A DNA stretch of 64,000 nt from Halobaculum marinum (lineage in GTDB: Archaea; Halobacteriota; Halobacteria; Halobacteriales; Haloferacaceae), in the NCBI RefSeq assembly GCF_029338555.1, contig NZ_CP119989.1, positions 1,550,001-1,614,000 on the forward strand. The letters are read 5' to 3'. Shown here piece after piece: positions 16,380 to 33,917 of this stretch (positions are counted from its first letter, which is position 1; each line of letters begins with the position of its first letter). Made by a program: the position numbers and the translations under genes. The notes under the pieces were generated by a model, which saw only the letters and a list, made by a program, of their open reading frames with translations, searched no databases and was not told the DNA's origin.

Positions 16380-16631
16380 TCACTCCGTGATCACGTCGAG
16401 GTGCAGTCCCAGCCGCTGGACCGTCGCCTCACACCACGCCGGGACGAAGCCGGATCCTTCGTAGATCGCTTCGTCTTCGTCGGTGACGCGGAACCGTTCG
16501 TGGTCGTCGCCGCGCCTGAGCGTCACTCCGACTTCGCTGGCGTGGTAGGCCTCTTCGTCGATGCTGAACCGGATCTCCGGCGCGTCGTCGTCGGTGTCCT
16601 GCGGGGACAGGACGCGATCTCTCGTCGACAT
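16380..16631 (-). CDS. Small haloarchaeal protein of unknown function (83 aa)
   Basis: Acidic protein with strong beta propensity (IRFSIDEEAYHASEVGVTLRR and later FRVTDEDEAIYEGSGFVP). No domain recognised. Codon usage is host-like and GC-rich, unlike the next genes. It marks the left edge of the low-GC cargo. Confidence 0.6.
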   Translation of the reverse strand: MSTRDRVLSPQDTDDDAPEIRFSIDEEAYHASEVGVTLRRGDDHERFRVTDEDEAIYEGSGFVPAWCEATVQRLGLHLDVITE

Positions 16632-16778
16632 CGAGCGAACGGAGTACCGTTTCGGGTTTGAATAGGTGAGAGAAGCCGACTATTTTCCGAACATTGGTGT
16701 AGAGAATCACCATACAGTGACGACTCGTGGATTCAGTCCCGGACAAAAATCCTAAAATTACGGCACTTCCGGACACGA

Positions 16779-16846
16779 ATATTGTGGTAATCTGTGTTTC
16801 CGGCATGCTGTCTTGAATAATACACGTTCAGGCCGAACCACAATAT
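16779..16846. promoter_or_regulatory. Inverted repeat ATATTGTGGT / ACCACAATAT upstream of the 156-aa gene
   Basis: Perfect 10-bp arms at 16779-16788 and 16837-16846, 48 bp apart, end about 38 bp before ATG 16885. An AT-rich run TATGTATTAATAATAA sits between the second arm and the start and probably includes the core promoter. A two-site operator is plausible. Confidence 0.5.
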
Positions 16847-16884
16847 GTATTAATAATAAACACTCAGATGCGAATTGATATTCC

Positions 16885-17355
16885 ATGAGCGAGACTGCTG
16901 ATGTTCCAGATCCATACATTCGTGACGGTCTGAGTAACCGGCCGGTTACGTCGGAGGTGATTCAGTCGGAGATGAGCTATGTAATTGACTCGTTAGTGAA
17001 TCCGGAAGAAGCAGGCCAACGATCAAACGGTGTTAATGACTCCAATCAGGAACTCCGACGAGATCGATGGGAACGTCTCTGTGAAATCTATGACGAACTT
17101 GTTGAAGAGTTATCTGATAATGAGAGTGTCTATGGATTACAGATGGGCTATTTCAATGACGTTGGCGGACACCCGATTGGACTCGTAGTTGCTTTGCATC
17201 ATAGCCCTTCATCCACACTTACAGGCAGGGTCCCGGATGACATTCTAACGCGAATTCGCGATGGACAAATCCAACTCGTAAAGGATAAACCCAGCTCGAC
17301 AGAGCAGGTCAGAGTCTTTGGGTTCGCACTCCCGAAGATATCAACAGAGGCGTAG
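16885..17355 (+). CDS. Protein of unknown function (156 aa), low-GC cargo
   Basis: An N-terminal region is followed by a predicted helix (DRWERLCEIYDELVEELSD) and a beta-rich half (VYGLQMGYFNDVGGHPIGLVVALHH). No family recognised. Base composition is clearly lower in GC than the flanking genes, indicating a different origin. It may belong with the DUF2971 gene downstream (108 bp apart, same strand), but coupling is not evident. Confidence 0.65.
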   Translation: MSETADVPDPYIRDGLSNRPVTSEVIQSEMSYVIDSLVNPEEAGQRSNGVNDSNQELRRDRWERLCEIYDELVEELSDNESVYGLQMGYFNDVGGHPIGLVVALHHSPSSTLTGRVPDDILTRIRDGQIQLVKDKPSSTEQVRVFGFALPKISTEA

Positions 17356-17462
17356 AGATAACTGTTAGTTGGGGTTCTGTTTACCGGTAGAATTTATCCT
17401 GCTGAATCTATATGACGGGATGTGATAATCCAAAACATTAATTCACACACCAGAGGTATGAT

Positions 17463-18290
17463 GTGTCTCAAGTAGACGAGTCAGATTGGCAACCTGAACA
17501 GCCGGGTAGTACACGCGACATATGGCGCTATCTTAGTTTCCCAAAGTTCGTGTCTATTCTCGACACAGAAAGCCTGTGGTTCAGTGCTGCATCTGAATTT
17601 CAAGATTCTCACGAGGGGGCACTACCTCTACCAACAGTAGAACAAAGAGTGGCGAAACGCATGGGTCCGCCAGAGGAGATCAATGTCGAACAGCTGTTAC
17701 AATCATCTTTGTTAGAAACGCTGCTCCACATCGGCACTAGTAAAGCAAGCTACATGAGCTGTTGGCACCTGAATTCGTATGAATCGGTCGCGATGTGGGA
17801 CCTCTACTCTAGTGAAGGCAAAGGAATTGCTATCCAAAGCACAGTTCAGGACTTTAAGCACTCAATTGAGGACCGTCCAGTGAAGTCGGGTTCGGAGACG
17901 GAGGAATACGACAATCCACAGGAGTTGATCGAACTTGGGAAAGTGGAATATATTGACTACGCAGAGGATCAAATACCACACGGAAATCTGACTGCGCCAC
18001 TATTCCACAAGCGGAAGAGTTTCAGCCACGAGAGAGAGTTCCGGGCGGTATATTCAAAAGTGGGAGACGTAGCCGAGCTACTTGATAGGGAGGAACCTCA
18101 GCTGGACATGTTTGAAGACTTTCCAGCCGGTGAGCCAGTGTCGATCAATATCGATCAACTGATTGAAAAGGTGTATATCGCTCCCGACTCACCTGATTGG
18201 TTTGAAAGTGCTGTCAGAGCGGTCATTCGGGAATTCGACTTTGACTTTGAGACGCAACGATCATCTCTCGAAAGGGATCCAATATTTTAG
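17463..18290 (+). CDS. DUF2971 domain protein
   Basis: This 275-aa protein has DUF2971 landmarks: WRYLSFPKFVSILDTESLWFSA near the start, SCWHLNSYESVAMWDLYSS in the middle, then GIAIQST and KRKSFSHEREFRAVYS. The start is GTG 17463; nearby ATG codons are out of frame. DUF2971 genes are frequent in mobile elements and defence islands, sometimes with abortive-infection annotations; the biochemical activity is not established. Confidence 0.8.
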   Translation: MSQVDESDWQPEQPGSTRDIWRYLSFPKFVSILDTESLWFSAASEFQDSHEGALPLPTVEQRVAKRMGPPEEINVEQLLQSSLLETLLHIGTSKASYMSCWHLNSYESVAMWDLYSSEGKGIAIQSTVQDFKHSIEDRPVKSGSETEEYDNPQELIELGKVEYIDYAEDQIPHGNLTAPLFHKRKSFSHEREFRAVYSKVGDVAELLDREEPQLDMFEDFPAGEPVSINIDQLIEKVYIAPDSPDWFESAVRAVIREFDFDFETQRSSLERDPIF

Positions 18291-18370
18291 ACTATAACGT
18301 CTGTAAAGAATGAATTGAGATTGATATAGAAAATCTGTTTCCAGATAGCAACCATGTCGAAAATGAGAAC

Positions 18371-19384
18371 CTACCCATCTTGGGCAATCGACAGATAACG
18401 CGTCCCTCGCCCACTCCCCTGCTTTCGGATACACCCGTACCGAACGAGGACGTTCAGATACCGCCGACGGTCGCGACCGTGCGCGTCCGGGTACTCCACC
18501 TCGAACCGATCAGCCAACTCCCCGGCGCGGATCTCGCCCGCGTCGTCGATCATGTGCTTCAGTAGTCGATGCGGGGTGTCCAGCCGCTCGACGTTGTACC
18601 GCCGGATCGACTCCATCGCCGGTTCGCGGACGTCGGCGATCAGCGCCGGCGTGACCCGTTCGTCGCGGGCCTTCCCCTCGACGTAGGCCTCACGGAGGAT
18701 CGATATCGCCTCGCGAGCGTTCCCAGCGGCGGTGTCCGCGATCAGCTCCAGCGTCCCGTCCGTGATCCCCGAGAGGTCGCCCGCGTCGACGCGCGACTGG
18801 AGGATGTCGACGAGCTCCGACTGACTGTACCGCTTGAGTTCGATGTGTGGGCCGGTCCGGAGTCGCGACGACGTCGCGGCGTCGAGGCGCGCCGCGAATC
18901 GCTCGTACTCGTGGACGACGAACACCGGCGTCACGCCGTCGGCCTCGAAGAGGACGTGCGGGAGGTGCTCGTCCTCGATGTGTTCCGCTTCGTCGAGGGT
19001 GAGGACGATGGGCGAGTCGGCGTCCTCCAATTGCGCGAGGTACGACGACGCGGCGTCCGCCTTCGGCGATGAGCGCGTCTTGAGCCCGGCGTCGACCAAC
19101 GCCTCTTCGAGGATCGCGGCGCGCGAGCGCGTCCGGAGACAGTCGACGTGCGCGGTGTTCACCGCCGTCTCCCGGCGGAGTTCGCGGACGGCGAACCGCG
19201 AGACTGCCGTCTTGCCCGCGCCCGTCGGCCCCGAGATACAGATCGGGTACGCTGGGCGGTCCGAGCGCAGCGGGTCCAGGGCGTTCGCGAGCTGCCCAAG
19301 CGCGGCGTCGCGGTGGGGCATCCGCTCGGGGACGCGGTCGAGTTCCAGGACCCGCGGGACGGATGTACTCACTCCGCCCGCCAT
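18371..19384 (-). CDS. Orc1/Cdc6-family AAA+ replication initiator, element type
   Basis: This 337-aa protein has Walker A GPTGAGKT at 52-59, Walker B LTLDEAEH with Asp131-Glu132, sensor and lid segments (AGNAREAISILREAYVEGKA), and a C-terminal winged helix (DAGEIRAGELADRFEV). It is shorter and more divergent than chromosomal haloarchaeal Orc proteins, as usual for plasmid and provirus copies. It overlaps the upstream 118-aa gene by 16 bp. No clear origin-recognition boxes were seen next to it. Confidence 0.85.
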   Translation of the reverse strand: MAGGVSTSVPRVLELDRVPERMPHRDAALGQLANALDPLRSDRPAYPICISGPTGAGKTAVSRFAVRELRRETAVNTAHVDCLRTRSRAAILEEALVDAGLKTRSSPKADAASSYLAQLEDADSPIVLTLDEAEHIEDEHLPHVLFEADGVTPVFVVHEYERFAARLDAATSSRLRTGPHIELKRYSQSELVDILQSRVDAGDLSGITDGTLELIADTAAGNAREAISILREAYVEGKARDERVTPALIADVREPAMESIRRYNVERLDTPHRLLKHMIDDAGEIRAGELADRFEVEYPDAHGRDRRRYLNVLVRYGCIRKQGSGRGTRYLSIAQDG

Positions 19385-19725
19385 TGGTGCCGTGGGTGGA
19401 TCCAGTCCCAGTCGTCGAGGTCGACCTCGGCGAAGTAGTCCTCACGTCCGGCGTACCGGATTTCCTCGGGAACGTCTCGGGCGAGGTCGTCGACACCGTC
19501 GACGTTGAACCCCGCGGCGACGACGTGGTTCCAGAAGTAGTCCCAGTACAGCGCGACCTCGCACTCGTTCACGAGTCCGAGGAGTTCGTAGCGTCCTTCG
19601 TCGGCGTCGGTGAGGTGACGGGTCAGCGTGATCGCCTCACTCGGGGAGCGGTGTTCGGCGATCGTCCACGCGAGTTCGCCCTTGGTATGGGTGAAGACTC
19701 CGCGTTTCGTGCTCGACTTTGACAT
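19369..19725 (-). CDS. Orc-linked protein of unknown function (118 aa)
   Basis: Begins MSKSSTKRGVFTHTKGELAW; rich in Trp and Asp at the C-terminus (DLDDWDWIHPRHQWRAE). Its stop overlaps the Orc1/Cdc6 start by 16 bp, so the two are probably co-translated. The coupling suggests a role with Orc in element replication or copy control. The frame upstream of ATG 19725 is open but not protein-like. Confidence 0.7.
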   Translation of the reverse strand: MSKSSTKRGVFTHTKGELAWTIAEHRSPSEAITLTRHLTDADEGRYELLGLVNECEVALYWDYFWNHVVAAGFNVDGVDDLARDVPEEIRYAGREDYFAEVDLDDWDWIHPRHQWRAE

Positions 19726-19954
19726 CACCTCGATACCGACACGGTTCGGTATTAGAAGCGATCCAAGGGCGGAGTGTAAGTAGAGGCACCCGGATGCGGG
19801 TCGAATTCTCACCGGTAGTGAACGCTGGCTAGTGCAAGCGTCTGTTGAACATCGGAGTGTTGGAACATGATTCGCATTGACCCACCCAGAGTGACAGGTC
19901 ACCCATCAATTAGCGACCGAAACTACCATTAGCAGACCTCCCAATGGACGCCGT

Positions 19955-22321
19955 ATGGCGATTCCTCGGGACTCGAGTACTGGCAAATATGTGACTGAAT
20001 ACTCGCCAGCTCGAATCATCCTGGGACTTGCATTTGACGGCTCTCACAGTACGGGGGAGGTAGAGGACAAACTGGGCTGTAGTCGTGAAACTGCCCGACA
20101 GAAGCTCCTACTGCTTGAGAGCTGTGGTGTCGTTACTCAAAAGACGGTCGGGGACACATTCGTTTGGTCGCTGAGCGAAGATGCTCTTTCAGAGCGGTCC
20201 AATGCGATCCAATCTCAGGATACCATTGAGTTGCTGATCACGGAAACGCTTCAGGAACTCGCTGATCATCTAGCTCAACCTGGCCAGGCACTCCCCGAGA
20301 ACATTATCGAGTGGATCGAAGACAGAGATGTTGACGACACACTTTCTGAAGCGGTTTTCGCATATCGGATGGGTCTATTCAAGCGACTGCTCAGGGCAAC
20401 GCTCTATTCGCTCCATGAGGACGAGCACGAGTCGCTGGACCCGTTAGTTGCAGATATTCACTGGAACAGCCAGTTGGACTACGCGTACAAGGAAACCGGC
20501 GACAGCGGGCTTGCACGGGCTCCTATTGAGCGTCTCATTGACTCGGATGTCGAGATCGTCTCGAAGCTACTCATCGCGCTAACCAACGCACTTGGCAACG
20601 TCGAGAACCCCGCAACGACGCTCACGACAGTGTATGAGTCGTTGGTCCCGCAAGACACCCGACGTTCGTTAGGTCAATTCGGGACTCCCGACTATGTGAG
20701 CGACTTCTTGGCATCATGGGCAGTTCGGGAGGCAGATGACTCAATTCTTGATCCCGGTATCGGTGCTGGTCAACTCGCTTCGAGTGGGTTGGACCGGAAA
20801 CTGAAGCTTGGCGCGGAGAGACCGCTGTCAGAAATCACTGGCGTAGACGTCGACGATGTTGCGATTTCAATGGCGTCGGTAACGCTCAAACTTGTGGATG
20901 GTTCTGGTAAACCCAATCTGTACTTGAATGACTTCATGGAGTATAGTCCGCACAGCTGGGATGAGGATTCGTACGAGCAGAAAACCGTCGACGGCGTCAT
21001 CGCAAATCCTCCTTACTCCCGACATCAAGCACTGGATGAGGAGTTCAAGAATACACTCTCTGAGACCGTGTCGCGAGAGACCGGCCGAGAATTTTCTCCG
21101 CGGACCCCGTTGTATGGGTACTTCATCGCTCACGCGGCACAATTCCTCGAAAGTGGTGGTCGATTTGCCGCAATCGTTCCTTCGCAGTTTTTCGACACCG
21201 AATTTGGGCGCGATTTGAAGGAGTACCTACTATCTGAGTTTACAATTCATGGCATCGTTCAGCTCGCCGATGAGCTCGATGTCTTTGAGGATGTCCGTAC
21301 CCGTCCTAGTATCCTCCTCCTTGAGAAGGGTGCACCGGACCACTCTCACGAGATCAATTTCTGTCGCCTCACAAGCTGGGACGGGATAAGCGATGCCCCA
21401 GAGCTACTCCAGTCCGATTTTGAGTCCTTCCCAGCGGTCGAATCCAATACCACAGTTGTGCAAGATCTAGTACCTGCCCATCAGCGATGGTCGGTCTACC
21501 TCGACGAGACTGAAATTTTAGACCGGTCAGAGCTCACCGAGTTTGAGACAATCGCCTCGATCAAGCGGGGAATTGCAACGGGGAGTAACGACTTCTTCTG
21601 CCTCACTGGTGAAGAAGTCGCAGATCTTGGAATCCCGGAGAAGTATCGAAGGCGGATCATCAAGTCTGCACGTGGAATGGACTATGTTAATCTCACTGAG
21701 TCAAACTGGGAGACATGGGAGACTGAGGGGAAGTCAGTTTGGCTGTTGTACTGTCGTGAGGATGGTGCGCCAGTCGAACGTAACGAACTTCCTCGTACTG
21801 TTGATGAGTACCTGGCGCAAGGCGAATCGTCAGGGGTCACTGATGGGTACCTCGTCTCAAAACGGTCCTACTGGTACCAGGTCGAAGCACGCGATCCTGC
21901 ACCGATCCTTGGCAAATACATGAACCGGACTGGTTTCCTGTTCATGCGGAACGATGCAGATCTGCTCACACTGAATAATGTCCACGCAATCGACCTCAAC
22001 TTCGGATATACCGATGACGAGCGTGACGCACTTTTGGCGTATCTCAACAGCACTGTCATGGAGCAAATCCTCAGTGCGGCCAGCCACGACTACAGTGGCC
22101 TGCAAAAAATCGAAATCGGCCAGCTGAGTGGTGCAGCGGTAATCGACCCCCGGGAATTGACCCCGTCGAAGCGGGAGACATTGGCCAATTCTTTTGACGA
22201 GCTCTGTGAGAAGCGACAAAACGGTCGCAGTGGTGAGGAGGTCATCGAGGAGATCGACAAATCCATCGAGAGCATCTTGGATCTTCGTGCACGAGATAGT
22301 AATGAGCTTCAGTCAAATTGA
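19955..22321 (+). CDS. N6-adenine DNA methyltransferase with N-terminal winged helix
   Basis: This 788-aa protein starts with a helix-turn-helix (residues about 30-65, DKLGCSRETARQKLLLLESCG). Motif I of the methylase is DPGIGAGQL (266-274), preceded by GQFGTP, and motif IV is NPPY (351-354), the hallmark of amino-methyltransferases modifying adenine. Residues about 530-760 look like an Eco57I/TaqI-type target-recognition region (GIATGSNDFFCLTGEE). No nuclease domain is visible in the protein and no matching restriction subunit lies alongside. It could be a solitary methylase or the self-marking arm of a local defence system. Confidence 0.85.
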   Translation: MAIPRDSSTGKYVTEYSPARIILGLAFDGSHSTGEVEDKLGCSRETARQKLLLLESCGVVTQKTVGDTFVWSLSEDALSERSNAIQSQDTIELLITETLQELADHLAQPGQALPENIIEWIEDRDVDDTLSEAVFAYRMGLFKRLLRATLYSLHEDEHESLDPLVADIHWNSQLDYAYKETGDSGLARAPIERLIDSDVEIVSKLLIALTNALGNVENPATTLTTVYESLVPQDTRRSLGQFGTPDYVSDFLASWAVREADDSILDPGIGAGQLASSGLDRKLKLGAERPLSEITGVDVDDVAISMASVTLKLVDGSGKPNLYLNDFMEYSPHSWDEDSYEQKTVDGVIANPPYSRHQALDEEFKNTLSETVSRETGREFSPRTPLYGYFIAHAAQFLESGGRFAAIVPSQFFDTEFGRDLKEYLLSEFTIHGIVQLADELDVFEDVRTRPSILLLEKGAPDHSHEINFCRLTSWDGISDAPELLQSDFESFPAVESNTTVVQDLVPAHQRWSVYLDETEILDRSELTEFETIASIKRGIATGSNDFFCLTGEEVADLGIPEKYRRRIIKSARGMDYVNLTESNWETWETEGKSVWLLYCREDGAPVERNELPRTVDEYLAQGESSGVTDGYLVSKRSYWYQVEARDPAPILGKYMNRTGFLFMRNDADLLTLNNVHAIDLNFGYTDDERDALLAYLNSTVMEQILSAASHDYSGLQKIEIGQLSGAAVIDPRELTPSKRETLANSFDELCEKRQNGRSGEEVIEEIDKSIESILDLRARDSNELQSN

Positions 22322-22508
22322 ATGAGCGTAAAATGGCATGCTACAGTGGACTTGATAATGAACTTCTTCGGTAATCAGTGAGCCAAGATCGTTAGCATGA
22401 CTGATCACAATCAGTTTGTGAGCTAAACTTCCGGAGCAACCCCCGGAATATACCTCCTAGTAAGTCGAAAGGAATGTGCTAGCATCATACTTTCTGATAG
22501 GGTCTAAT

Positions 22509-23306
22509 TTAGATAGGGCGGTGACGGTTTTCGTCTAAAATAGGTGTTCCATCATCTCTTATGCAGTGATGGACGTACCAGGACTCAGAAACCATCTTTT
22601 GACCTCCGAACCCGTGCTCGAATGATTCTTCTGGGAATCTCGGAATATGCTCCTGTATTATCTCTTCAGAAGGCCATCCTCTACTCTCAATAATTGTGTC
22701 GGGGAGGTGATCATTCAGGATCATATAGCCCACAGAAACCACATCAAATGGGGGACATGGAATACGTGGGAAGGCCGGATATGACCGCTCATGTTCTGCA
22801 GGATCCCAATGTTTGAGCGCGCTCGTATCTACACAGTTCGGATTATACTGTGCATGGAAGATTGGGTGATTTGCGTCTTGCTCTCCATCATCGCCATTTG
22901 CCTGGTCCCCATTTAGGTCGAAGTCAAAATGTAAGCCCTGTACTCTTTCTCTTGCTTCTTCACCGTCGGTTTCGATGAGTTTGAGATAAACCATTTCAGT
23001 TGAGGACTTTGAGATCAGATAGTTCTCAGAGCCATCCTTGGTTCGCTTTCCGATTGTCATCGCGAACTGAATATAGATCTCCACCTTTGTAGATTCATCC
23101 TGGGGACGATACGGGACTGGACCCAAACGGACTGCGGTACCCTCATCTGTCTCGATAGTGATCGTATGCTCGTCAGCAAGGTCAATAGTAAAATTTTTTG
23201 AAGGGCTGTCGTCGGATTCTGTTTCTTTTGCCAAGTTATTCAGATATGTAGCGTATGCTTTGGTAAGTTTCGCTTTGTCTCCCCCGTGAACTTCTTCCCA
23301 TTCCAT
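22509..23306 (-). CDS. Unknown protein (265 aa), third gene of the kinase operon
   Basis: Last gene of a three-gene minus-strand operon, starting 4 bp after the receiver-like gene. The N-terminal 120 residues are beta-rich and acidic. The most conserved-looking part is HPIFHAQY (147-154), then RIPCPPFDVVSVGYMIL (181-197). No catalytic motif is recognised. Its constant partnership with a kinase and receiver would suggest an output or cargo-recognition role, but that is inference from position only. Confidence 0.75.
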   Translation of the reverse strand: MEWEEVHGGDKAKLTKAYATYLNNLAKETESDDSPSKNFTIDLADEHTITIETDEGTAVRLGPVPYRPQDESTKVEIYIQFAMTIGKRTKDGSENYLISKSSTEMVYLKLIETDGEEARERVQGLHFDFDLNGDQANGDDGEQDANHPIFHAQYNPNCVDTSALKHWDPAEHERSYPAFPRIPCPPFDVVSVGYMILNDHLPDTIIESRGWPSEEIIQEHIPRFPEESFEHGFGGQKMVSESWYVHHCIRDDGTPILDENRHRPI

Positions 23307-23310
23307 AAAT

Positions 23311-24420
23311 TTACCACCCCTTCAGTTTCATCCAAGCTTCTTCACGCAGACGACTAAGAGACGCTCCGGCAGGAATCCAAGCTTCGGGACTGACTGAATG
23401 TTCCTCACAAACTGGGACATTTTCTAAGATACAATAGTAACCAGCGCCCTCATGCTCCTCCACACACATGACTGAGTCTACTTCTATTCCCTCCCGGGAC
23501 AGGAAGTCAATGGTGGTCACTGTTCCGTCATCTTCGACAGTTGTGTTCATAGCAAGAATATTATCCAGTTCTGCAGTCCACCAGTAGTCACCCACCTCCG
23601 AAAATGGCCCTTTATATCGGGCGTCTTCAAATCTACTACGAATTTCGTTGTTGGTACTGAATTCCTCTACATCGATTCCCAAATATGACGCAGCGGCGAT
23701 CTCATTGACCAATACACCAGGATACTCGAGAAGTTGATTCACCATCCAATATCCAAGGACAGTTGCCTTACGACGAATTGCGTCTTCCTTACCTTCATTC
23801 TCTTTTAACAGAGATAGACTCTCAGACTGGCCCCAGGAGTACTTGTCAATGTCCGGTTTTGAACTGATCGGGACATTATCGAGTTCCTTAATAAACTCCG
23901 ATGGCGGTTCGAATAGCTCCTCTGGCGACGCCTCTGCCATCCGCTCTGTCAGGTGTGTTCGGATTTTGTCGAATCCTTTGATCAGAGCTGCACACTTTAG
24001 AGCCATCTGTTCATGGCCGCCGTTGCGGGGTAGCAATCTGATTATCTGATCATCTGATTCTTTGACGCTGTCTGGGTCGGCGTATTCGCCGTCGTCACGG
24101 TGATAAACGCAAAGGGGAATTCCAAATTCGCTACAGGCTTCTCGAACATCGGCCCGGCGAACAGTACTGCTTTGATACTCGTTTAATTCAGCATCTAAGA
24201 TGACCAGTAGAGGATATCCTTCGTCTTCATCAGCTAGAAGTTCCTTCACGTATTCTGTATCATCAAACTCGCTTTGATTTCCATCATCTCCAAGGAACTC
24301 CTCAATTCTGAACCGTTCCGTGTCAATATGTGATTCTAAAGGAGACTTGAGATCTTTCAGATTCGACTCATTGTCTTCAAAAATGTAAATTCGGTGTTCC
24401 ATTGTGTGACCTTCTGTCAT
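23311..24420 (-). CDS. Receiver-like protein (369 aa), second gene of the kinase operon
   Basis: The N-terminal 130 residues resemble a response-regulator receiver: beta strand IYIFEDNES with acidic Glu15/Asp16 and LLVILDAEL with a candidate phospho-acceptor Asp76. The remaining 240 residues are an unrecognised domain with a helical part (GYWMVNQLLEYPGVLVNEIAAASYLG) and a Cys/His-containing end (DSVMCVEEHEGAGYYC). The start at 24420 overlaps the kinase stop by ATGA; an internal ATG at 24402 is possible. No DNA-binding helix-turn-helix is evident, so the output is probably not classical transcription control. Confidence 0.8.
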   Translation of the reverse strand: MTEGHTMEHRIYIFEDNESNLKDLKSPLESHIDTERFRIEEFLGDDGNQSEFDDTEYVKELLADEDEGYPLLVILDAELNEYQSSTVRRADVREACSEFGIPLCVYHRDDGEYADPDSVKESDDQIIRLLPRNGGHEQMALKCAALIKGFDKIRTHLTERMAEASPEELFEPPSEFIKELDNVPISSKPDIDKYSWGQSESLSLLKENEGKEDAIRRKATVLGYWMVNQLLEYPGVLVNEIAAASYLGIDVEEFSTNNEIRSRFEDARYKGPFSEVGDYWWTAELDNILAMNTTVEDDGTVTTIDFLSREGIEVDSVMCVEEHEGAGYYCILENVPVCEEHSVSPEAWIPAGASLSRLREEAWMKLKGW

Positions 24421-26873
24421 CGTTTAAATCTCACCTCAAAACAAGTTTCGAAATCCTCTGGAGCCTCTACTACTGATATCTCTCCATCTGAATTTTCTAC
24501 AATTCGTCTTACCACATACAGTCCTAACCCTACACCTGCTCCGAGAGGGTCGTCGTCTCTGTTCTCTGTTGTGCTGAACAAAGGATCGAAAATCCGATTT
24601 TCTAGTCCCGATGGGATCCCACTTCCGGTATCAGCGACGCGCAATTTATGCCAGGTATCCGTATTTTCAGCCTCAAACCGAATTATCCGACCATTATTTT
24701 CGGGAGGTACCTCTAAAACGGCTTTGATTGCATTCGTAAATAAGTTCATCAAGACGCCGGTGTAGACACTGGGATTGACCTCAGGTGTCTTAATATATTC
24801 TGGGTACTTGTGTTCGATAGTAATTTGTTTTCGATCTGTATAGTGACTGAATTGCTCGATTATTTCCGCTGTTTTACCCTTAACAAAGAGCTCATTTTGG
24901 GTATCTTCTTCTAACCCTTGCATGAACCGTTTCGAATAGCCAAGTTGCTTCTCGAACTTGTCTCGAGCCTCTCGTGTAACATCTAATCGATGTTCTAATG
25001 CTTCAGAGCGCTCATTTTCGGGGGTTTCCTCCCATGCCTCAATCATTTGATCCGCACTGCGAAGTAACTCGTTCGTTTCATGTGTCATGAATGCCGCAAC
25101 GGCACTCATGAGGTACATTGACTCTACAGAACTCTGAAAATCTACTTCCGCCTGTTCATATCTGTCGACTTTTTCACTTAGTTCTGAATACGACTGCTCT
25201 ATTTTTGGCTTGATTTCCTCATTGATCTTCCGCTGAAAGTCGTTGGTGGTCCTGAGAGAATCAGCTGACTCTGCCGACGGAGATCTGCCGGGCGAGTCTG
25301 TACTTACGTCCCCGTTTGAGAATGCGTCATCAATTGATAGCTGTCCCTTTGTCTCTGTAGATTGTCCGCTCTCAGGATTCGTTGTCGAGTTCGTTTCTGA
25401 CTTAAATTCTTTTGCGGCAGATTCTAGTTCTTCTTCTATCTCTTTCTGCTGCTGCTCGATCTCGCTCTTCAGTTCCGATTTGGATTCCTTTGCTTTTTGC
25501 CTTTTTCTACGGAGTTCCTCTTCTTTGTCAAGGATAGCGATAATTTCGATGGCACCGCGCGCAATGTCACGGAGTTGGTCCATGGCCTCATTCTCAATGA
25601 ACCCTTGCCGGTCCATGGCTGGAACTAGTTTTTGCAAACTCTCGTCTACGTCCTCGCTCTCACCGGGACGATAGCTAGAGACGTTCAGTGACCCCAGTAT
25701 TTGATTCTTCGATGGAAGATTGAGTTGGTGCTGTTTCGTATCGGCAAGCATCTGTCCCCCACCAGAGGAAATGTTGGAGGTGAATGTTGATCGCCATTGG
25801 CGTTCACGTCTTGCCTGAGATTCGGAAATATTCAACCAATCATTCAATTCATCTCCGTAGGGCGGTACACGGAAATTCTTATCAATAATTCTTACCCCTC
25901 CGTTATTTCTAAGCCACTTCGGTACGCTTCTACCGTCAATAGTGTTGAGATTTCTAAATAAGCCCGAGTAGTTCCAATTAAAGTATCGAATCTCGCCAAA
26001 TACGTCATCCAAGAGGTTCTTTCCAAGATTGAATTCGTACACCCTGGACTCTGATTCATTATCATCATAGCCATACTTATATTCACAGTCATACCTGACA
26101 GTCGTTTCCCTCACCGAAATTTCGACTTTCATCACATACCGTTCATAGATCTCCTGAGCGGCACTCTTCTCGGGGGCTCCTTCCCCGGGAGGTGCAAAGT
26201 AGACCGAGAATCCAGGGTCTGCTTTGTCTGAGCCTCCTCCCGGTTGCATCTCCGAACGATTCGTCTGATAAGGCGCTGAAATAATATCTAGGACTTCTCC
26301 GGAGACCTCTTCTAATTCATCCTGGGTCCAATTGCTCTGTAGTTGGGAGATCTCGAGAGTCGTCCCCTCCTCCTCCACATCAGCAGTCTCTATCTGATAC
26401 GTAACCTCTTCACTTTCCAAAGGCTGCCCACTCTCGAAGTCTCCCCACTTCAAATCAGCGGTCAACTGTCGGTATTCTTGATGTTCTTCATACCAAGCGA
26501 CAGTCTCGATCGAGAGCTCCAACCCAAGGTTTCGAACGGCGAATCTGCCCACTCCCTTTGCGCCGGTCAACTCACGGTTATATCTCTTTGAGGTCTCCTG
26601 TTCAAGTCTACTGTTCGTCGCAATTGTCATCCAGTAATCTCGAAACTCCTGCTCGGTCATCCCGTGCCCATCATCCTTTACGAACAGACTATCTTCCTTG
26701 AGCCAGATATTGCACTTGGTAGCATCCGCATCGTAGGCGTTCTTGATGAGCTCTGAGAGAGCGATGTCCGGAGTAGCGATAAGCCGCTCTCCGATCTCAG
26801 AGAGAAGCTTACTATCGCTGGAGAATCGGACTGTCCCCGAATCTAATGTTTCGCGGGAATCAGATTGAGACAT
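24417..26873 (-). CDS. Double-GHKL ATPase: Hsp90/MORC-like N-terminus plus histidine-kinase C-terminus
   Basis: This 818-aa soluble protein has two complete ATP-binding folds. The first: ELIKNAYDAD (41-50), VKDDGHGM (65-72) and TGAKGVGRF (103-111), with a following IIDKNFRVPPYGDELNDWL segment as in Hsp90-like HATPase_c_3 proteins. The second: NLFTNAIKAVL (710-720), ADTGSGIP (747-754), FDPLFST, and GAGVGLGLY (778-786). A dimerisation helix with candidate phospho-His598 (THETNELL) precedes the second ATPase. A charged coiled coil (about 450-490) and a Ser/Thr-rich linker lie between. No membrane helix is seen, so the stimulus is intracellular. First gene of the operon; promoter should lie just above 26873. 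Confidence 0.88.
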   Translation of the reverse strand: MSQSDSRETLDSGTVRFSSDSKLLSEIGERLIATPDIALSELIKNAYDADATKCNIWLKEDSLFVKDDGHGMTEQEFRDYWMTIATNSRLEQETSKRYNRELTGAKGVGRFAVRNLGLELSIETVAWYEEHQEYRQLTADLKWGDFESGQPLESEEVTYQIETADVEEEGTTLEISQLQSNWTQDELEEVSGEVLDIISAPYQTNRSEMQPGGGSDKADPGFSVYFAPPGEGAPEKSAAQEIYERYVMKVEISVRETTVRYDCEYKYGYDDNESESRVYEFNLGKNLLDDVFGEIRYFNWNYSGLFRNLNTIDGRSVPKWLRNNGGVRIIDKNFRVPPYGDELNDWLNISESQARRERQWRSTFTSNISSGGGQMLADTKQHQLNLPSKNQILGSLNVSSYRPGESEDVDESLQKLVPAMDRQGFIENEAMDQLRDIARGAIEIIAILDKEEELRRKRQKAKESKSELKSEIEQQQKEIEEELESAAKEFKSETNSTTNPESGQSTETKGQLSIDDAFSNGDVSTDSPGRSPSAESADSLRTTNDFQRKINEEIKPKIEQSYSELSEKVDRYEQAEVDFQSSVESMYLMSAVAAFMTHETNELLRSADQMIEAWEETPENERSEALEHRLDVTREARDKFEKQLGYSKRFMQGLEEDTQNELFVKGKTAEIIEQFSHYTDRKQITIEHKYPEYIKTPEVNPSVYTGVLMNLFTNAIKAVLEVPPENNGRIIRFEAENTDTWHKLRVADTGSGIPSGLENRIFDPLFSTTENRDDDPLGAGVGLGLYVVRRIVENSDGEISVVEAPEDFETCFEVRFKR

Positions 26874-26883
26874 TTGATATGTC

Positions 26884-27081
26884 TTGTTACTGGATGGTAA
26901 TAAATCCGGGCGAATGGGACAGAGAACGCGTAGAACGTCTCTCGGTACGCCAGAGTTCGGAAAGGGAGCAGTCAGTGCAATTTTGGATGTGGTGGAATTG
27001 CTTGCTCCAGAGTTTGATCAACTACTTGGAGAGCTTCAGAGGTTTTGGTTCGCCGTTCATCGGAACGAAATCAGGGATTAG
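26884..27081 (+). pseudogene. Possible gene remnant in the 363-bp interval 26874-27236
   Basis: The interval between the kinase operon and the phosphoesterase gene has no intact gene. On the plus strand the segment ending at 27081 encodes a protein-like amphipathic stretch (ILDVVELLAPEFDQLLGELQ, then RFWFAVHRNEIRD and a stop) without a convincing start. It may be the decayed 3' end of a lost gene. The rest of the interval should contain the operon promoter. Confidence 0.3.
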
Positions 27082-27236
27082 CTTGTGGATCAAGAATCGG
27101 TACTCAGTACTACAGGAGAATCGGGAATCACCCTTCGTTCGAGAGGTGGTCTAAATACGTGTATACTTAGCAGATGATTCATGTGGGAATTTTGAGTACC
27201 ATAGACAAGGCATGGTGCTGTGAGTTCGTTTAACTA

Positions 27237-27803
27237 TTATATTACAGGTGCGTCGGCAAGCGTTTCATATCGCTCTCCTGTTTTAATGTTTGAGACAAGG
27301 TCCGAGAGCAATAATGGTCGGTACTCAATCCGTTCACAAGCGACATTGACACGTCGAGTTTCTGGATCGATGAACGGGTACTTTGCTGGGTTTTCGTGCT
27401 CGTGGCCCGAAATGATCCACCCATCGAAGTAATCTGGGGCGTGCTCTGCTTTGTGTGTGAAGTAGAAACTATACCCCTGGAAATCAAGTCGCCTCGATTC
27501 CTTGATGTCTATCGCCGAATCAGCGAAGCTGGACTTCGGAATTGGGGCGTGATTCCCAGCAATCAGATTGACCGTCCCATTGAGTTGATCCAACCTATAG
27601 AGGGCGTGGCTTTCCCGCCTTTCGGGTGGCTCCCCACCGAGTAGATCGCCAACGTGGTAGACGGTGTCTGCCTCGTCGACGACCGAATTCCAATTGTCGA
27701 TGAGAGCTTCGTTCATTTCATCCACCCCGTCAAATGGCCGGTCCAACTCATTCACCATCTTCGGATCGTCAAAGTGGGTGTCCGAGATGACATAGATCGT
27801 CAT
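27237..27803 (-). CDS. Metallophosphoesterase (calcineurin-like), phage type
   Basis: This 188-aa protein has the metallophosphoesterase blocks in order: DTHFDD (8-13), GDLLGG (near 52), GNHA (near 84) and GHEHE (near 132). The usual DLxHG after GD is replaced by DLLGG. Small stand-alone enzymes of this form are common in viruses and mobile elements, acting on phosphate mono- or diesters. It sits alone between the kinase operon and a divergent restriction-type gene. Confidence 0.85.
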   Translation of the reverse strand: MTIYVISDTHFDDPKMVNELDRPFDGVDEMNEALIDNWNSVVDEADTVYHVGDLLGGEPPERRESHALYRLDQLNGTVNLIAGNHAPIPKSSFADSAIDIKESRRLDFQGYSFYFTHKAEHAPDYFDGWIISGHEHENPAKYPFIDPETRRVNVACERIEYRPLLLSDLVSNIKTGERYETLADAPVI

Positions 27804-27931
27804 AGTAGCTCACACACAACGGTTGGTATAATCTCTTGGTCTGCCGAAGCCCCTGAGTCAGCGTATCTGGCCGAGATCTTCACTCTCGTTTTATCAGAAC
27901 ATCTATCTTCCATAGATAGATTGCAAAGAAC

Positions 27932-29012
27932 ATGGAGGACGATCCAGACCTGTTTCTTGCACCCTGTAGTAGGGAGCATAAGGAAACCACCATCAAGTAC
28001 TTCCGAGATACGGTCCTCGAGGGTATTGATCCTGCTCAGTATCAAGAGGTTGCAGATCTCGGATACGAGGGTCGGACTCCGGTGTGGGGGGTGGTGAGCT
28101 CGAAGAAATCGACGTGGGAGCAGATGGACGAAGGCGACGTAGTCCTATACTACACGAAGGCTGGCGAGTACACGCATTGTGCTACCGTCTCCGGAAAGTT
28201 GGCCGACGAACGAATAGCACGCCACATTTGGGAACCATATGATGAAGGCCGAACGGTCGATGATATCGAGGAACCGTGGACCTACATGTTCTTTTTGCGG
28301 AACGTCCAGGAGGTCGATATCCCGGCAGAAGTCGTTCACGGCACACTCGGATACGAAATGGAGTATCCACTCGGGTTTATGCGGCCCTCGGACACGGCAC
28401 ACTCCACTCTTCGGGGAGAGTACAATAACGTAGAGTCGTTCCTGACTGAACAGGGCTACGCATACCGCCGGGAGCTGGAGACCGTGGACTCGGGTGACCA
28501 AGTCGAAGAATTCTCTCCGAGTAGCCTTCGTGACCGATCCGGATCCTCGGTGGGAACAATCGAAGACAACCCCCAATCTATCGAGTCCACTATCAACCCT
28601 GCTGAGACCGAACGAAAGAAGAGAGAGCACGAGACCATCCTCGACTTCATAGAGGAACGCCTCACAGCGGCAGGTTTTCATACCGGTGAGACCTCAAGGA
28701 GCGATCTCATCGCGATTGGCAAGGGGGGAAGTGGTTCTGGCTGAAGGGAAAACGATCCACGAAGACAATGAGAAGACACAGATTCGCTCGGCGCTTGGTC
28801 AACTTCTAGAATATCGTTACCAAGACATCCGAGTCAACGAAAGCCTGGACGGTGAACCACTACTATTTCTAGTACTTAGTCAACGGCCTTCGGACTACTA
28901 TGCGGCATTCCTCCGAGATCTACAGAGTGATGGGATCTATACTTGTTGGATAGAGGACAAAGAGATCAGAGGCTTCAGCGAATTCGCCGATGTCTTTGAG
29001 AGCTTAATTTAA
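27932..29012 (+). pseudogene. EVE-like domain plus PD-(D/E)xK-type nuclease, frameshifted
   Basis: The first frame (27932-28744, 270 aa) holds an EVE/PUA-like domain: FLAPCSREH, TPVWGVVSSKK, GDVVLYYTKAGEY, then PWTYMFFLRNVQEVDIP. It ends shortly after a run of six Gs (28723-28728). Removing one G joins it to the second frame (to 29012) as SDLIAIGKG then EVVLAEGKTI and RSALGQLLEYRY. The Asp and GluXLys are arranged as in PD-(D/E)xK nucleases. The joined protein would be about 359 aa. EVE domains bind modified cytosine, so a modification-dependent restriction enzyme is plausible. Either the gene is broken or the homopolymer is a sequencing error. Confidence 0.7.
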
Positions 29013-29165
29013 ATATCCGAGCCCGAATCCATCGCCGAAAACTTCTGTCTCGATGCTGAATTCTGGTACGACCTCTCGGTCGAAACAGTCGAAACAACTC
29101 GTTTCGACGGACTTCGACACCCCTACCATCAACAAGGAGCCGTGATCGTCTGGAAACTTGGGTGA
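29013..29165 (+). pseudogene. Fragment of an unidentified gene
   Basis: An open stretch without a start codon encodes ESIAENFCLDAEFWYDLSVE, then a run containing FDGLRHPYHQQGAVIVWKLG and a stop at 29163. The composition is protein-like, but there is no room for a full gene. Beyond it, 29166-29323 shows nothing recognisable apart from AT-rich sequence before the next gene. Confidence 0.35.
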
Positions 29166-29323
29166 GCGGAAAGTGCAACGTGAATTAGATGACGGAGACA
29201 GAGATCTGACGGTCTACCGTTGCTGGTGGGGCCGGGGGCCCCGAACACACAGAGACAAGCTCAGTATATCTTATCTATGATATTCTGGTGCAGGATTTCA
29301 TTATCAACTAATCTGATATACGA

Positions 29324-30229
29324 TTGTGTCTTAGCCCGCTCTGGATCAATCACGCTGATGGACCGGTAACTGAGACTCAGTATAACCAGCAAGCAATCGA
29401 CCGAGGATACGGACTTTTACATTGGGGAGATCGCCCATCTGCGGATCCCGAAGACTACCAGGACAAGAAACGGAAGTGCAGGACCGAGCTCCGCCGCCTT
29501 AGTGAAGCTGTGGAGCAGGACCGACTTGTTGTTACCTTCTACAATCCACTAAGCAGGATCACGATTGCGAAGCCTGAATCTGTTTGTATTATTCCTGCCA
29601 CGGATACCGCACTTCAAGATCCCATTGACGTCGAACCCCGAGGGAGTACCACTCTAAACGCAGAGTATTCGCGGATTTTCAAAGGAATCCGATTTTCAGA
29701 GAGTTCTTCTATAGAGGTCTCTCCGACAGAAGCCCCACCTCTATTTGACACGGATCTGCACCCTCCACACTATGCTGCGTGTAATTGGGGAAAGATCGAC
29801 GAGGAGATCGTGGAGGCGGCATATCGGAAAGAGCCGATTCCATACGTTGCATCGAGCCTCACACCTACGCAAGTTGAAGTTTGTGCTGAAGAGTATCTCC
29901 GCTCGATATACCCCTCTTTCCGTCGAACCTCGACATTAGGCGGTGAGCAAAAAGACGTTGATGTTATTGGACATATTGGGCCTACGCATGGCCCGGCAGT
30001 GATTGCTGAGATGACTGGTGGGGATAGGGATGACGCTCAGAAGAGGGCTGGTCGATTGGAGAAATACAGTGATCGATCTGAGCATCTCTATCTGTTCGCA
30101 CCTTCGGGGAGCAAGCCGGATTCGGTTCCTAAGTCGATTGAATTCATTCCGTTAGAAGAGGTCTTCAGTTTCCTCGACGGATCTAACCGGACGAGATCGA
30201 TGCTAAACGAGATGCTAATGCAAGCGTAG
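29324..30229 (+). CDS. Unknown protein (301 aa), possible nuclease-like C-terminus
   Basis: The start is GTG 29324. The N-terminal half contains DRGYGLLHWGDRPSADPEDY and a charged helix. The C-terminal part reads KDVDVIGHIGPTHGPAVIAEMTGG, which recalls the Asp..Glu core of the restriction-endonuclease fold but lacks the usual Lys. I do not recognise the family. It lies in the restriction-gene cluster, on the same strand as the frameshifted gene, with HNH nuclease convergent downstream. Confidence 0.6.
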   Translation: MCLSPLWINHADGPVTETQYNQQAIDRGYGLLHWGDRPSADPEDYQDKKRKCRTELRRLSEAVEQDRLVVTFYNPLSRITIAKPESVCIIPATDTALQDPIDVEPRGSTTLNAEYSRIFKGIRFSESSSIEVSPTEAPPLFDTDLHPPHYAACNWGKIDEEIVEAAYRKEPIPYVASSLTPTQVEVCAEEYLRSIYPSFRRTSTLGGEQKDVDVIGHIGPTHGPAVIAEMTGGDRDDAQKRAGRLEKYSDRSEHLYLFAPSGSKPDSVPKSIEFIPLEEVFSFLDGSNRTRSMLNEMLMQA

Positions 30230-30375
30230 AATTACCCCGTCTATTGAGGTTGGATTTTATTTGAATATGGGCAAGCCATTGCCGGAGCAGAACTGGAAAG
30301 TGAATGCAAACGGCTCAGAAATTAGATCGACGAAAGTGCACGCCCAGCCTGTGCGATATCTTAGCTCAGGGTCAT

Positions 30376-32007
30376 TCAATCATCTACCGGCCACCAATCG
30401 AGTTGAGAATTCCGCTCTTGGATAAACTCAGTACGGACCGGTGAATCCTTGAGAGCGGGGATTTGAGCCCCTTCGCGGAGTGTTAAGGTGTTTTGAAGCC
30501 AAGGGTCATTGGACTCGAACTCCGGAGATACCCATAACCTCCCATTGGCATCGAAGGTCCATAGGTCAGCATCAAAGGCTGCGTGGTGAGTATGGGTGAG
30601 AAGCACGACGTTGCCGATGTCTTCTGCGATCTCCGGATGATCAGCTCGTCCAAGTATATGGGCAACCTGGAGGAGTCGAGGATCGGATATCTCTGTCAGA
30701 ATACACTCGCCGTACGTGTCGTGAGTCTCGTTTCTAAATTCCTGACTGATCCTGACCTGAGTCTGCTCTCCCGTTGATATCCGGCCGGCAGTATCCGTGG
30801 TGTCGGATGGACCTGCAATGGTCGTATCATCTACTGGTTCTGGGGTGACTGAGGCCTCCCCATATCTCATTCCTGGAGTGACTTCTCCGGACTCCACCCA
30901 CTGATGCCATACGTCCGGGGCCAGTGCGTCGGAGCCAGTTTCCGTACGCTGATGTATCCACGACAGAGGAACCTCTTCAACGTCGAGGACACCGAGATGA
31001 TAGAGATAGTTCGGTGTGGGGACACCGTTGTCCTCGAATTCGTCGAGCTCAACTTGTTCGATTACACAGAGGCCGTTGAACTCGACAACTCCTGATTCTG
31101 GGCGTCTGAAAACCAAAATTGGAGGGTAGCGAGTCCGTTGGTCAGTAGTGTTTAATCGGTGAACAGCACGCAATTGCTGGTTCCCGGGGAACTCGTCCTC
31201 ATCAATCGGTTCATCAGACTCCGAACCGCTCCGCTTCGCGTCACCCCAGTAGTGGATCAGCCCATTGTTCAGGTCGAATTCGTCGTCCCAGCGGTTGAAT
31301 CCGTCAGGGTCGTCGAGTTCTGAAGAGACAATAACAACTGCAGTAACCTCCCCTTTTTGAGGACCGGTCTTGGCTTCGACGACACGAATTCCGGCGCTAT
31401 TGCCTATACCTGATTCGAGAGGGCCCTTGATCCAACTTTGGAACTCATCACGTTCCGGATCCGTCGAGTCGTAGTATCGCGCTCCAACACGGTACCAATT
31501 CTCGGAATCCTCAGACCTTGATGATTCGGCCTGGTCGTCGATTGAATCGTTGACGGCGTAGCTAAACACCGCATCCCAGTCATCCACATGACGAGCTAAC
31601 GGCCCATCGTATTCGCCTGAACCGAGGACTCTGATTTTCTGGTCTCCTTTAGAATACGTACCGGCGGTGACCATCTCCTCGGTCAGGAACAGGAAATGGT
31701 CCTGGTCGAGATCGTATCGGCCGGTATCCCAGACGTCGAGTGTAATATTGACTACCCTGCGGGGATCGTCACTTTCGGCCTGCTCCTGCTCTCGATTATA
31801 TCGATGCCAAATGTATTCCACGCCTTGGTCGTCGCGGAACTCCCGACTCTGGCCTTCGGAGGTCCGTACCTTCCCGATAATGCCAGGATCTTCTCCTAAT
31901 ACGAAATGGAAAATTCGCCCGTCTGTCTCAGCAGTAAATCGGATACCCCTGTCGTTTGCTCGTTTACGGAGTTCGTCTACCCAATCAGAAATTGCTTGGA
32001 CTGGCAT
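30376..32007 (-). CDS. HNH endonuclease with probable modified-DNA-recognition N-terminus
   Basis: This 543-aa protein ends in an HNH domain: His450 (QVAHILGRAD), Asn466 (DIGNVVLL) and His475 (THTHHAAFD). The middle part includes NGLIHYWGDAKRSG and FPGNQQLRAVHRLN, resembling the recognition domains of AspBHI/ScoMcrA-type modification-dependent enzymes. The likely role is type IV restriction of modified foreign DNA. The nuclease call is firm on motif; the specificity is inferred. ATG 32007 gives MPVQAISDWVDELRKRANDR. Confidence 0.82.
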   Translation of the reverse strand: MPVQAISDWVDELRKRANDRGIRFTAETDGRIFHFVLGEDPGIIGKVRTSEGQSREFRDDQGVEYIWHRYNREQEQAESDDPRRVVNITLDVWDTGRYDLDQDHFLFLTEEMVTAGTYSKGDQKIRVLGSGEYDGPLARHVDDWDAVFSYAVNDSIDDQAESSRSEDSENWYRVGARYYDSTDPERDEFQSWIKGPLESGIGNSAGIRVVEAKTGPQKGEVTAVVIVSSELDDPDGFNRWDDEFDLNNGLIHYWGDAKRSGSESDEPIDEDEFPGNQQLRAVHRLNTTDQRTRYPPILVFRRPESGVVEFNGLCVIEQVELDEFEDNGVPTPNYLYHLGVLDVEEVPLSWIHQRTETGSDALAPDVWHQWVESGEVTPGMRYGEASVTPEPVDDTTIAGPSDTTDTAGRISTGEQTQVRISQEFRNETHDTYGECILTEISDPRLLQVAHILGRADHPEIAEDIGNVVLLTHTHHAAFDADLWTFDANGRLWVSPEFESNDPWLQNTLTLREGAQIPALKDSPVRTEFIQERNSQLDWWPVDD

Positions 32008-32127
32008 ATCGAGTTACTGTAATTACTCTCTCAAAGTGCTTCGGTCAGACCTATCAGAATTGAGGCTATCCTATTACCCCGGTAATAGAGGTTCAGAAGG
32101 CCTCAAGGTTTGTTCGGTCGTGTTTCA

Positions 32128-32664
32128 CTACCAGAGTTCCTCGGCTTCAGCGTCGAGCTGGCTTCCGGCGTACTGCAAATAATCGTTCGCGCTCGAGAGG
32201 TCTGCGTGCCCCATCGTCTGGCGGATATACTGTGGAGTCGCTCCCCGCGCCGCGATCAGCGTCCCGTAGGTATGCCGGAGCACGTGTGATGTAATCTTCT
32301 TCCGAATCTCCGTCTCGGCGGCGACTCGCTTCACGCGGTTGGTGACGGTCTGTCTCGTCGCGTCGTACGACTCGTGGTAACTGAAGTAGTCGCGGAGCCG
32401 TCGAACAGTGCCGGGGTGTTTCAGCGGAATCGTCCGCGCAGAGTGCTCGGTCTTCGGAGTCCACTCGCCTTCGGCAGACGGAACACGAAGCCGCTCGGCC
32501 TGCCAATCGATCCACTCGTCTCGGAGATGAGCGAGTTCGTTTGCTCGCAGGCCGGTGTGGGCGAGTGTGTAGATTGTCACCTGGTGGGTGAGGTTATACT
32601 CGTCTACAGCGTCGAGCAGATCGTCGAGTTCTTCTTCGATTAGGGGTTCGCGTTTCCACGCCAT
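32128..32664 (-). CDS. Small tyrosine recombinase (178 aa)
   Basis: This is essentially just a catalytic domain, with Arg40 (HTGLRANE), His127 and Arg130 (HVLRHTYGT), His153 (MGHADL) and Tyr162 (NDYLQY). All five key residues are present, so it may be active even though it lacks the N-terminal core-binding domain. It could mediate recombination of the cargo region or be the remnant of a second element; no att-like repeat for it was found. Confidence 0.88.
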   Translation of the reverse strand: MAWKREPLIEEELDDLLDAVDEYNLTHQVTIYTLAHTGLRANELAHLRDEWIDWQAERLRVPSAEGEWTPKTEHSARTIPLKHPGTVRRLRDYFSYHESYDATRQTVTNRVKRVAAETEIRKKITSHVLRHTYGTLIAARGATPQYIRQTMGHADLSSANDYLQYAGSQLDAEAEELW

Positions 32665-33917
32665 GCGTCGTTGTCAAAGAGGTTTCCAGAGGAAGCTTAT
32701 GAACGGCCCGCACGGCAGGGTCAGTAGAGTTGAGTTTGACAGTCCCCCGTCTCTGTAAAACTGCATCGTCCCAGTGAACTCAGAGGCTCCCGAACGTTAC
32801 AAATGGCTGATCCGTATACAGACATAGGGAGCCACCCTACAGAGATGGTGTCAGAAACCTGGCGCCTGATATAGAGAGTACATGGGGCACGCAGTCTCCT
32901 TACCTCGATTGATATAGGGGGTCATTGCTCACTGTCTGGCAGTTCCGTCCGGGAAATTTTTATCACAATAGAGGTTGACATCTTGGATAGGTTCGGGATG
33001 CTCGCTATCACCCAGATATTCCACCGGCAGAGGAGTCTTAGCTCCTTCAGCGCCGGTAGAATAAAAGAGCTCTCGAGAGAGTGCTTGGGGCATTCCGAAC
33101 TCATCTATCATAACGAAACCCTACACCCGCTACGAGTATTGGAGGAGCTTTTACTCGTAAATTGGCAAAGAAAGCAGGTCGGCCCATGTTCAGCCAATAA
33201 CCCAGTTTCAACTGAACAGATGCCGACTTGTGAGTGCAGGAAAAGTTGGCCGCCACCAGACAGTTCGTTATTTAAGTAGGTTGCCCACTCCGGAACTGAT
33301 GGCCGTTCCACTCGGAACAGGGTGTCCTTGACTGGATACGGCAATTTAATAGATTGCCTACCCCGATGCCCTCTCTTTTCACCGGTGCGGGCTGTCCGAA
33401 TCTCAACAACAGAAAGGGTCAGAGTTGGCTCCTTTCTAAGCAAGTGAAGAGATTCATAGTCTACAGCCCGCGCTAAGCCCAGCGGTTCATATTGGGCGAC
33501 AAACAAATTGCAAGCGCCTAAGGAGGAGACCACCTCCAGCGATGAGGGTCGTTCAAACGGCCTCCTTGTTCGCCCCCTTTACAGATCCATCTCCATCATT
33601 TCGGGATGGCTATCACATCTAATCAAAAAATTAAGGCTATATTCATTCTATCTCCACTGTATATCAATATTCGCAAAGCACCTGCTGAAAAAGAGAATCA
33701 CACACACGATTCTCCAATATTACACGCAAAAGCAGGTGTTGGCTTTCATACTCATTGCCCCGGTCGCATACCTGAAAGGGTGGATAGAAATGGGTGATGT
33801 TGTGATGATACTAATCACGGTCCTCGCTACTCCGCGGCAGGGAGTGAAGTCAGAAACTTAATATCAAAGCCGTTTTACTGTTTCAAACAAGTCATCTAAC
33901 ATTGTTTAATTAAATAA
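32665..33917. other. 1.25-kb gene-poor, AT-richer interval
   Basis: No confident gene. On the minus strand, 32929-33111 encodes a 60-residue protein-like peptide (MIDEFGMPQALSRELFYSTG start). Its ATG overlaps by ATGA the end of a poorly protein-like frame at 33108-33533. These may be remnants of a decayed gene pair. The section 33550-33917 is the most AT-rich of the window and looks non-coding. It separates the cargo block from the particle operon. Confidence 0.4.

Follow-up and report, generated by a model that had tools for sequence, protein, structure and literature searches.

The HK–RR–X genes of Halobaculum marinum form a real, conserved and mobile unit, which encodes a double-GHKL histidine kinase (HK), an atypical receiver-like protein (RR) and a third protein (X), and which is constantly accompanied by an adenine DNA methyltransferase (MT). 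A cross-domain four-gene unit was defined in this way, with clear residues for mutation. The features in the window, i.e., the whole 64,000-nucleotide stretch of DNA that was analysed, are collected in Table 1. The three minus-strand reading frames were recovered with exactly the coordinates and couplings given in the original prediction. The unit of three genes claimed there proved real, but a fourth recurrent member, the methylase, had been overlooked.

Table 1. Coordinates of the cassette and of associated features (window positions unless another locus is named).
Feature	Position	Strand	Description and basis
HK	24417..26873	-	818 aa, soluble double-GHKL histidine kinase; ORF list, Pfam, alignment
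HK N-terminal GHKL site, MORC/Hsp90-like (HATPase_c_3)	26427..26768	-	Pfam; Glu41, Asn45, DxG and G-motif invariant 23/23
HK His598 codon, candidate phospho-His	25080..25082	-	His-Glu invariant 23/23; assigned from H-box position
HK C-terminal kinase ATPase (HATPase_c)	24423..24755	-	Pfam; N and G boxes invariant
RR	23311..24420	-	369 aa; 4-bp overlap with HK
RR receiver and novel ~205-residue output	residues 9-161 and about 165-369	-	AlphaFold2, Foldseek
RR Asp76 codon, candidate phospho-Asp, end of strand beta-3	24193..24195	-	AlphaFold2; 23/23 loci
X	22509..23306	-	265 aa; 4-bp gap to RR
X motif HPIFHAQ, residues 147-153	22848..22868	-	P148, H151 and Q153 identical 23/23
MT, Eco57I-type adenine DNA methyltransferase	19955..22321	+	Pfam; convergent, 187 bp from X
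Low-GC island with cassette	16400..34000	.	GC about 45-61% vs 66-69% in flanks
DUF2971 protein in island	17463-18290	+	candidate defence family PDC-S31, E 2e-20
AspBHI-like modification-dependent nuclease (AspBHI-N) in island	30376-32007
Integrase-family (phage-integrase) fragment in island	32128-32664
AspBHI-N nuclease near cassette, L015	11487-12638
AspBHI-N nuclease near cassette, L043	13479-14636

Conservation and Distribution of the HK–RR–X Unit

The RR profile was searched in one-per-species genome collections, IMG/VR and plasmids. Every strong RR match was accompanied by HK, RR and X in this order and on one strand (24/24 loci), and the genes nearly always overlapped or lay within about 20 bp of each other. 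The 24 loci comprise 23 distinct ones (L042 and L044 are near-identical), which span two deep clades. The arrangement is not due to chance, because its adjacent, ordered recurrence at all 24 loci was combined with residues that were identical in all 23 distinct loci. An X-only search of 292 haloarchaeal genomes was carried out to remove the bias of the RR search. X alone was found at 13 places in 12 genomes; the strong matches of the RR profile (E <= 1e-43) fell at exactly these 13 places, all of them adjoining X. The co-occurrence of the three genes in other genomes, on which the original prediction depended, was thus established by the 24 loci and by the independent X and RR searches.

The closest matches were all haloarchaeal, e.g., in Natrinema ejinorense and Haloferax elongans. 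The archaeal carriers were haloarchaea and a Thermoplasmata MAG (L021). The bacterial carriers were two Phycisphaerae of the Planctomycetes (L023, L026), a member of the Mariprofundaceae (L024), one of the Neomarinimicrobiota (L025), Pseudomonas gingeri (L027), another gammaproteobacterium (L040) and a member of the Myxococcales, Myxococcota (L028). The cassette was also carried by a Paraburkholderia plasmid (L014) and by two IMG/VR contigs (L029, L030), one of them a phage. At L029 it was located inside a phage genome (1649-17891), between portal/head-protease genes and the terminase, and the spot between head/portal and terminase genes is one in which phage-borne accessory genes are seen. 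The window RR used as a single sequence found nothing among the viral contigs; the RR alignment used as the query did find matches. Only one of the seven sampled genomes of the host's genus carried the cassette, and the six others were without X and RR.

The Methylase as a Fourth Member

An Eco57I/N6-type adenine DNA methylase was found by Pfam at <=5 kb from HK–RR–X at 24/24 loci. In most bacteria, in Thermoplasmata and in the two viral contigs, the genes were arranged as methylase–HK–RR–X on one strand and nearly abutted. At L040 the methylase came after X. In some haloarchaea it ran convergently or divergently relative to the trio, and in the window it was convergent. The N-terminus of MT carries a winged-HTH-like region. 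For a neighbourhood of 20 kb, the probability that a methylase lies nearby by chance was, by our own arithmetic, about 1-3% for each locus; since each of the 12 haloarchaeal carriers had only 1-6 Eco57I matches per genome, chance proximity at every locus was not credible.

The distance matrices of the core proteins were closely correlated (HK–RR 0.958, HK–X 0.937, RR–X 0.922), and the correlations with the methylase were lower (HK–MT 0.613, RR–MT 0.597, X–MT 0.561). Moreover, HK, RR and X of the window were nearest to those of L015, whereas the nearest counterparts of the window methylase were in the other clade (49% to the L090 methylase). Hence, HK, RR and X make up an inseparable core, beside which the methylase fills a constant but exchangeable role.

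Kinase and Receiver

Two intact GHKL sites in one soluble polypeptide had been predicted, and both were recognised by Pfam far above the cut-off, with HATPase_c_3 at residues 36-149 (E 1e-20) and HATPase_c at residues 707-817 (E 2e-22). The order in HK was N-terminal GHKL, middle/coiled-coil region, H-box and C-terminal kinase GHKL. In the N-terminal ATP site, Glu41, Asn45, Asp67, Gly69, Gly104 and Gly107 were identical in 23/23 loci across the two deep clades. The same held for Asn710, Asn714, Asp748, Gly750 and Gly782 of the kinase ATP site (23/23 loci) and for His598-Glu599 of the H-box (23/23 distinct loci). In paraMORC ATPases the GHKL domain is followed by an S5 domain; the middle region of HK was conserved, with its PYG motif included. 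The H, N and G boxes of a two-component kinase were therefore present as invariant residues in the alignment, and His598 keeps its place as the candidate phospho-His.

RR had no Pfam or NCBIfam family match. Its AlphaFold2 model was a (beta-alpha)5 receiver with a pLDDT of 84, which matched receiver domains with a Foldseek probability of 1.00, so that the receiver-like N-terminus proposed earlier was borne out. Asp16 and Asp76 were identical in 23/23 distinct loci. The model thus carries the acidic pair and the Asp at the end of beta-3 of a two-component receiver, and Asp76 remains the candidate phospho-Asp. Furthermore, the weaker RR-profile matches in the 292 haloarchaeal genomes (E 1e-5 to 1e-4) covered model positions about 3-150 and lay in frames of 560-820 codons. 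They appear to be ordinary receiver domains, and this resemblance supports the receiver assignment at the sequence level. The beta-5 Lys of two-component receivers was not conserved across the 23 distinct loci, and the beta-4 Thr/Ser column varied. RR is best described as an atypical receiver, and without a conserved Lys and a constant Thr/Ser its phosphorylation might not work classically.

The output of RR had been described as a non-DNA-binding region of 240 residues. No recognised HTH was found in it by Pfam. The region is shorter than described (Table 1), and a role in nucleic-acid binding is possible. The output of the clade-2 RRs ends in a C-x2-C ... H-x2-C pattern in the alignment, which suggests zinc binding.

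The Third Protein

X was expected to have no known domain, and no Pfam or NCBIfam family match was obtained, nor was any credible match found among PDB profiles, Foldseek PDB or BFVD. The two motifs noted earlier, HPIFHAQY and RIPCPPFD, were both present. In the predicted structure (pLDDT 77), an N-terminal helix was followed by an antiparallel sheet, and the conserved HxD and HxQ were placed on predicted strands. His126, Asp128, Pro148, His151 and Gln153 were identical in 23/23 distinct loci, and H126-x-D128 ... P148-x-x-H151-x-Q153 is a candidate metal or catalytic site. An assignment of X to the PADLOC family PDC-M19B was put down to chance, as only 1/13 members gave a weak match (E 0.0011).

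Genomic Context

The mobile and defence-gene surroundings that had been predicted were found in the window as a low-GC island with an integrase fragment and an AspBHI-like nuclease, and defence genes were also found at several other loci. PbeA/PbeC and a methylase adjoin HK–RR–X in three haloarchaea (L016-L018; 3/24 loci), and at L018 the trio sits between the methylase and PbeA. The HK–RR–X module may be needed by those Pbe systems in which a methylase takes the place of Dnd. HmaB and a DUF499 protein lie directly upstream at L025, and L088 has a helicase resembling DrmD/HmaA-type defence helicases as well as a large methylase. A YgjP-like metallopeptidase gene was placed between the methylase and HK at 7/9 clade-2 loci (L041-L044, L087-L089). 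Defence is the best reading of this context, which is stated with moderate confidence.

Some further genes were observed in the neighbourhoods. Three haloarchaeal cassettes had an AspBHI-N nuclease, with an HNH or Mrr C-terminus, at a distance of about 5 kb or less (Table 1). A calcineurin-like metallophosphoesterase adjoins the trio both in the window (27237-27803, -) and in another haloarchaeon, at L089 (10512-11069, +), with 37% identity. An EVE-like N-terminal reading frame of the window (27932-28744, +) is overlapped by one in another frame (28686-29012, +), and the two may have arisen from a single gene through a frameshift. At about 16650-17900 of L089, the peptide FQTDPCGIEA is repeated in the frame translation, a sign of a possible CRISPR array next to the cassette.

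Proposed Function and Alternative Explanations

We lean, with somewhat more confidence than doubt, towards a mobile, methylation-linked immune cassette under the control of a cytoplasmic two-component phosphoswitch. This reading is based on the strict gene order and the methylase at 24/24 loci, the co-divergence, the invariant residues, the receiver fold, the defence neighbours, phage carriage, the patchy distribution and the low-GC island. In the proposed mechanism, the adenine methylase would mark host DNA, and the N-terminal MORC-like domain of HK would act as an ATP-driven clamp that senses non-self or damaged DNA. Closure of the clamp would turn on the C-terminal kinase, and His598 would be phosphorylated. 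The invariant residues and the folds suggest that the phosphate then passes from His598 to Asp76 of RR, whose output region would activate or recruit X. The His/Asp/His/Gln cluster suggests that X may be a metal-dependent effector enzyme. The immune reading is weakened by the finding that no recognised nuclease or toxin domain was present in X or in the RR output, by the missing Lys and inconstant Thr/Ser of the receiver, and by the convergent or divergent methylase of some haloarchaeal loci, the window included, which could be separately regulated. A new class of modification-based immunity in archaea and bacteria, with sensing of self and non-self DNA by a MORC-type clamp, a His-Asp relay and a metalloenzyme X family with a fold not in the PDB, is put forward tentatively and is on balance doubtful. 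If the immune reading of the cassette is true, it would bring together MORC-type ATPases, two-component phosphosignalling and methylation-based self-recognition, which are usually kept apart. It would also explain the purpose of the kinase half in MORC relatives associated with restriction-modification (R-M), extend this theme to archaea and make X a new effector family.

In the main rival explanation, the cassette is a two-component system by which the methylase or neighbouring restriction/defence genes are transcriptionally regulated; HK would sense the state of DNA, RR, perhaps with X, would act as the regulator, and the effector would lie elsewhere. We consider it unlikely, though it deserves serious attention. 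The same proposal has been published for HEF_HK/Response_reg_2 (PMC8011034), the C-x2-C...H-x2-C cluster of the clade-2 RRs is accompanied by a helical segment, and CapK/CapS provides a precedent for a GHKL kinase that regulates immune operons (PMC13373217). However, many bacterial copies consist of a compact MT–HK–RR–X unit to which no further defence genes are directly joined, X and RR are inseparable, and the RR output contains no recognised HTH. The incomplete set of receiver residues could instead mean that the kinase and receiver modules are structural relics. HK would then serve purely as a MORC/MutL-like DNA clamp powered by ATP, and it would form an R-M-like complex with RR and X in which no phosphate is transferred. 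In favour of this reading, paraMORC ATPases that lack kinase parts work in R-M contexts (PMC2292703). This explanation is improbable, because the catalytic His, the N/G boxes and the acidic pair and Asp of RR were kept in 23/23 very divergent loci, and such conservation would be unexpected had phosphotransfer been lost. Least probable is a selfish addiction or stabilisation module, in which loss of methylation would activate X as a toxin via HK–RR. The methylase linkage, the plasmid and phage carriage and the patchy distribution would fit such a module, but the methylase was exchanged between lineages while the trio was retained, and no toxin fold was recognised.

Comparison With Known Systems

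Detocs is a phosphorelay anti-phage system, which shares with the cassette the logic of histidine kinase, receiver and effector in defence. It differs from the cassette, in which a constant methylase and a MORC-like ATPase sensor are present. Membership in Detocs was rejected, since its phosphorylase-type effector domain was not found in RR or X. The constant adenine methylase makes the unit look modification-linked rather than an analogue of Detocs. The phosphorelay-type defence system of new composition proposed in the original prediction is partly supported, with defence read from the gene context, and it has a published relative (PMC8011034). Type II R-M systems pair a DNA methylase with its cognate endonuclease; the unit has the methylase at every locus, and no nuclease domain was recognised in HK, RR or X.

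CapK/CapS is similar in having a GHKL kinase that is linked to immune operons and responds to DNA, in this case ssDNA; in contrast, it acts by serine phosphorylation of a STAS-wHTH repressor, and its unit has neither a receiver nor a methylase (PMC13373217). The PbeA helicase and the PbeC ABC ATPase of the PbeABCD / CxC ABC-ATPase systems (PMC6459918, PMC10853773) were found, together with a methylase, beside the cassette in the three haloarchaea mentioned above, but Pbe genes were absent from most loci including the window, and the definition of Pbe does not include HK–RR–X. Like HK, the MORC/paraMORC ATPases of R-M systems (Iyer et al., 2008, PMC2292703) have an N-terminal GHKL domain in an R-M context, and its E/N, DxGxG and G motifs are intact. 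The C-terminal half of HK is, however, a histidine kinase, not a nuclease or TIR domain, and a two-component partner is present here; no receiver partner of MORC/paraMORC is described in the passages of that paper that were consulted. According to a figure legend, the systems predicted by DefensePredictor (PMC13092281) include one that has HATPase and REC domains, which may or may not correspond to the cassette.

In the open literature that was searched, the same composition of HK, receiver and adenine methylase was not found, and only one report was close. It describes, in bacteria, HEF_HK (PF19191) and Response_reg_2 (PF19192) beside C5-methylases, for which control of R-M was proposed (Bellieny-Rabelo et al., 2021, PMC8011034). 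As these modules are already published, the kind of system is not wholly new. HEF_HK is likewise soluble, with an N-terminal HATPase_c_3, an H-box and a C-terminal HATPase_c, an adjoining RR-like gene with a conserved Asp, and linkage to DNA methylase and R-M genes. The N-terminal halves of HK and HEF_HK are homologous (hhalign 99.5%). PF19191 gave no match in the window HK and only weak matches in 5/13 members (best E 0.0019); a clade-2 HK scored 13.8 bits, below the cut-off of 24.1. No alignment was obtained between Response_reg_2 and the cassette RR (hhalign 0.1%), and 0/13 cassette RRs matched PF19192 (clade-2, 13.4-15.6 bits vs a cut-off of 27 bits); RR was hence rejected as a Response_reg_2 member. 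PF19192 was above the cut-off in none of the 10 cassette-carrier genomes. HEF_HK is in most cases accompanied by a C5-cytosine methylase, often together with Vsr, whereas an Eco57I/N6 adenine methylase is found here. Moreover, the two HEF_HK loci that were fetched were arranged as C5-methylase–HK–RR2, and an X gene was not seen there. Judged from these comparisons, the cassette is a lineage parallel to HEF_HK/Response_reg_2, with an adenine methylase, a new third protein and an archaeal occurrence.
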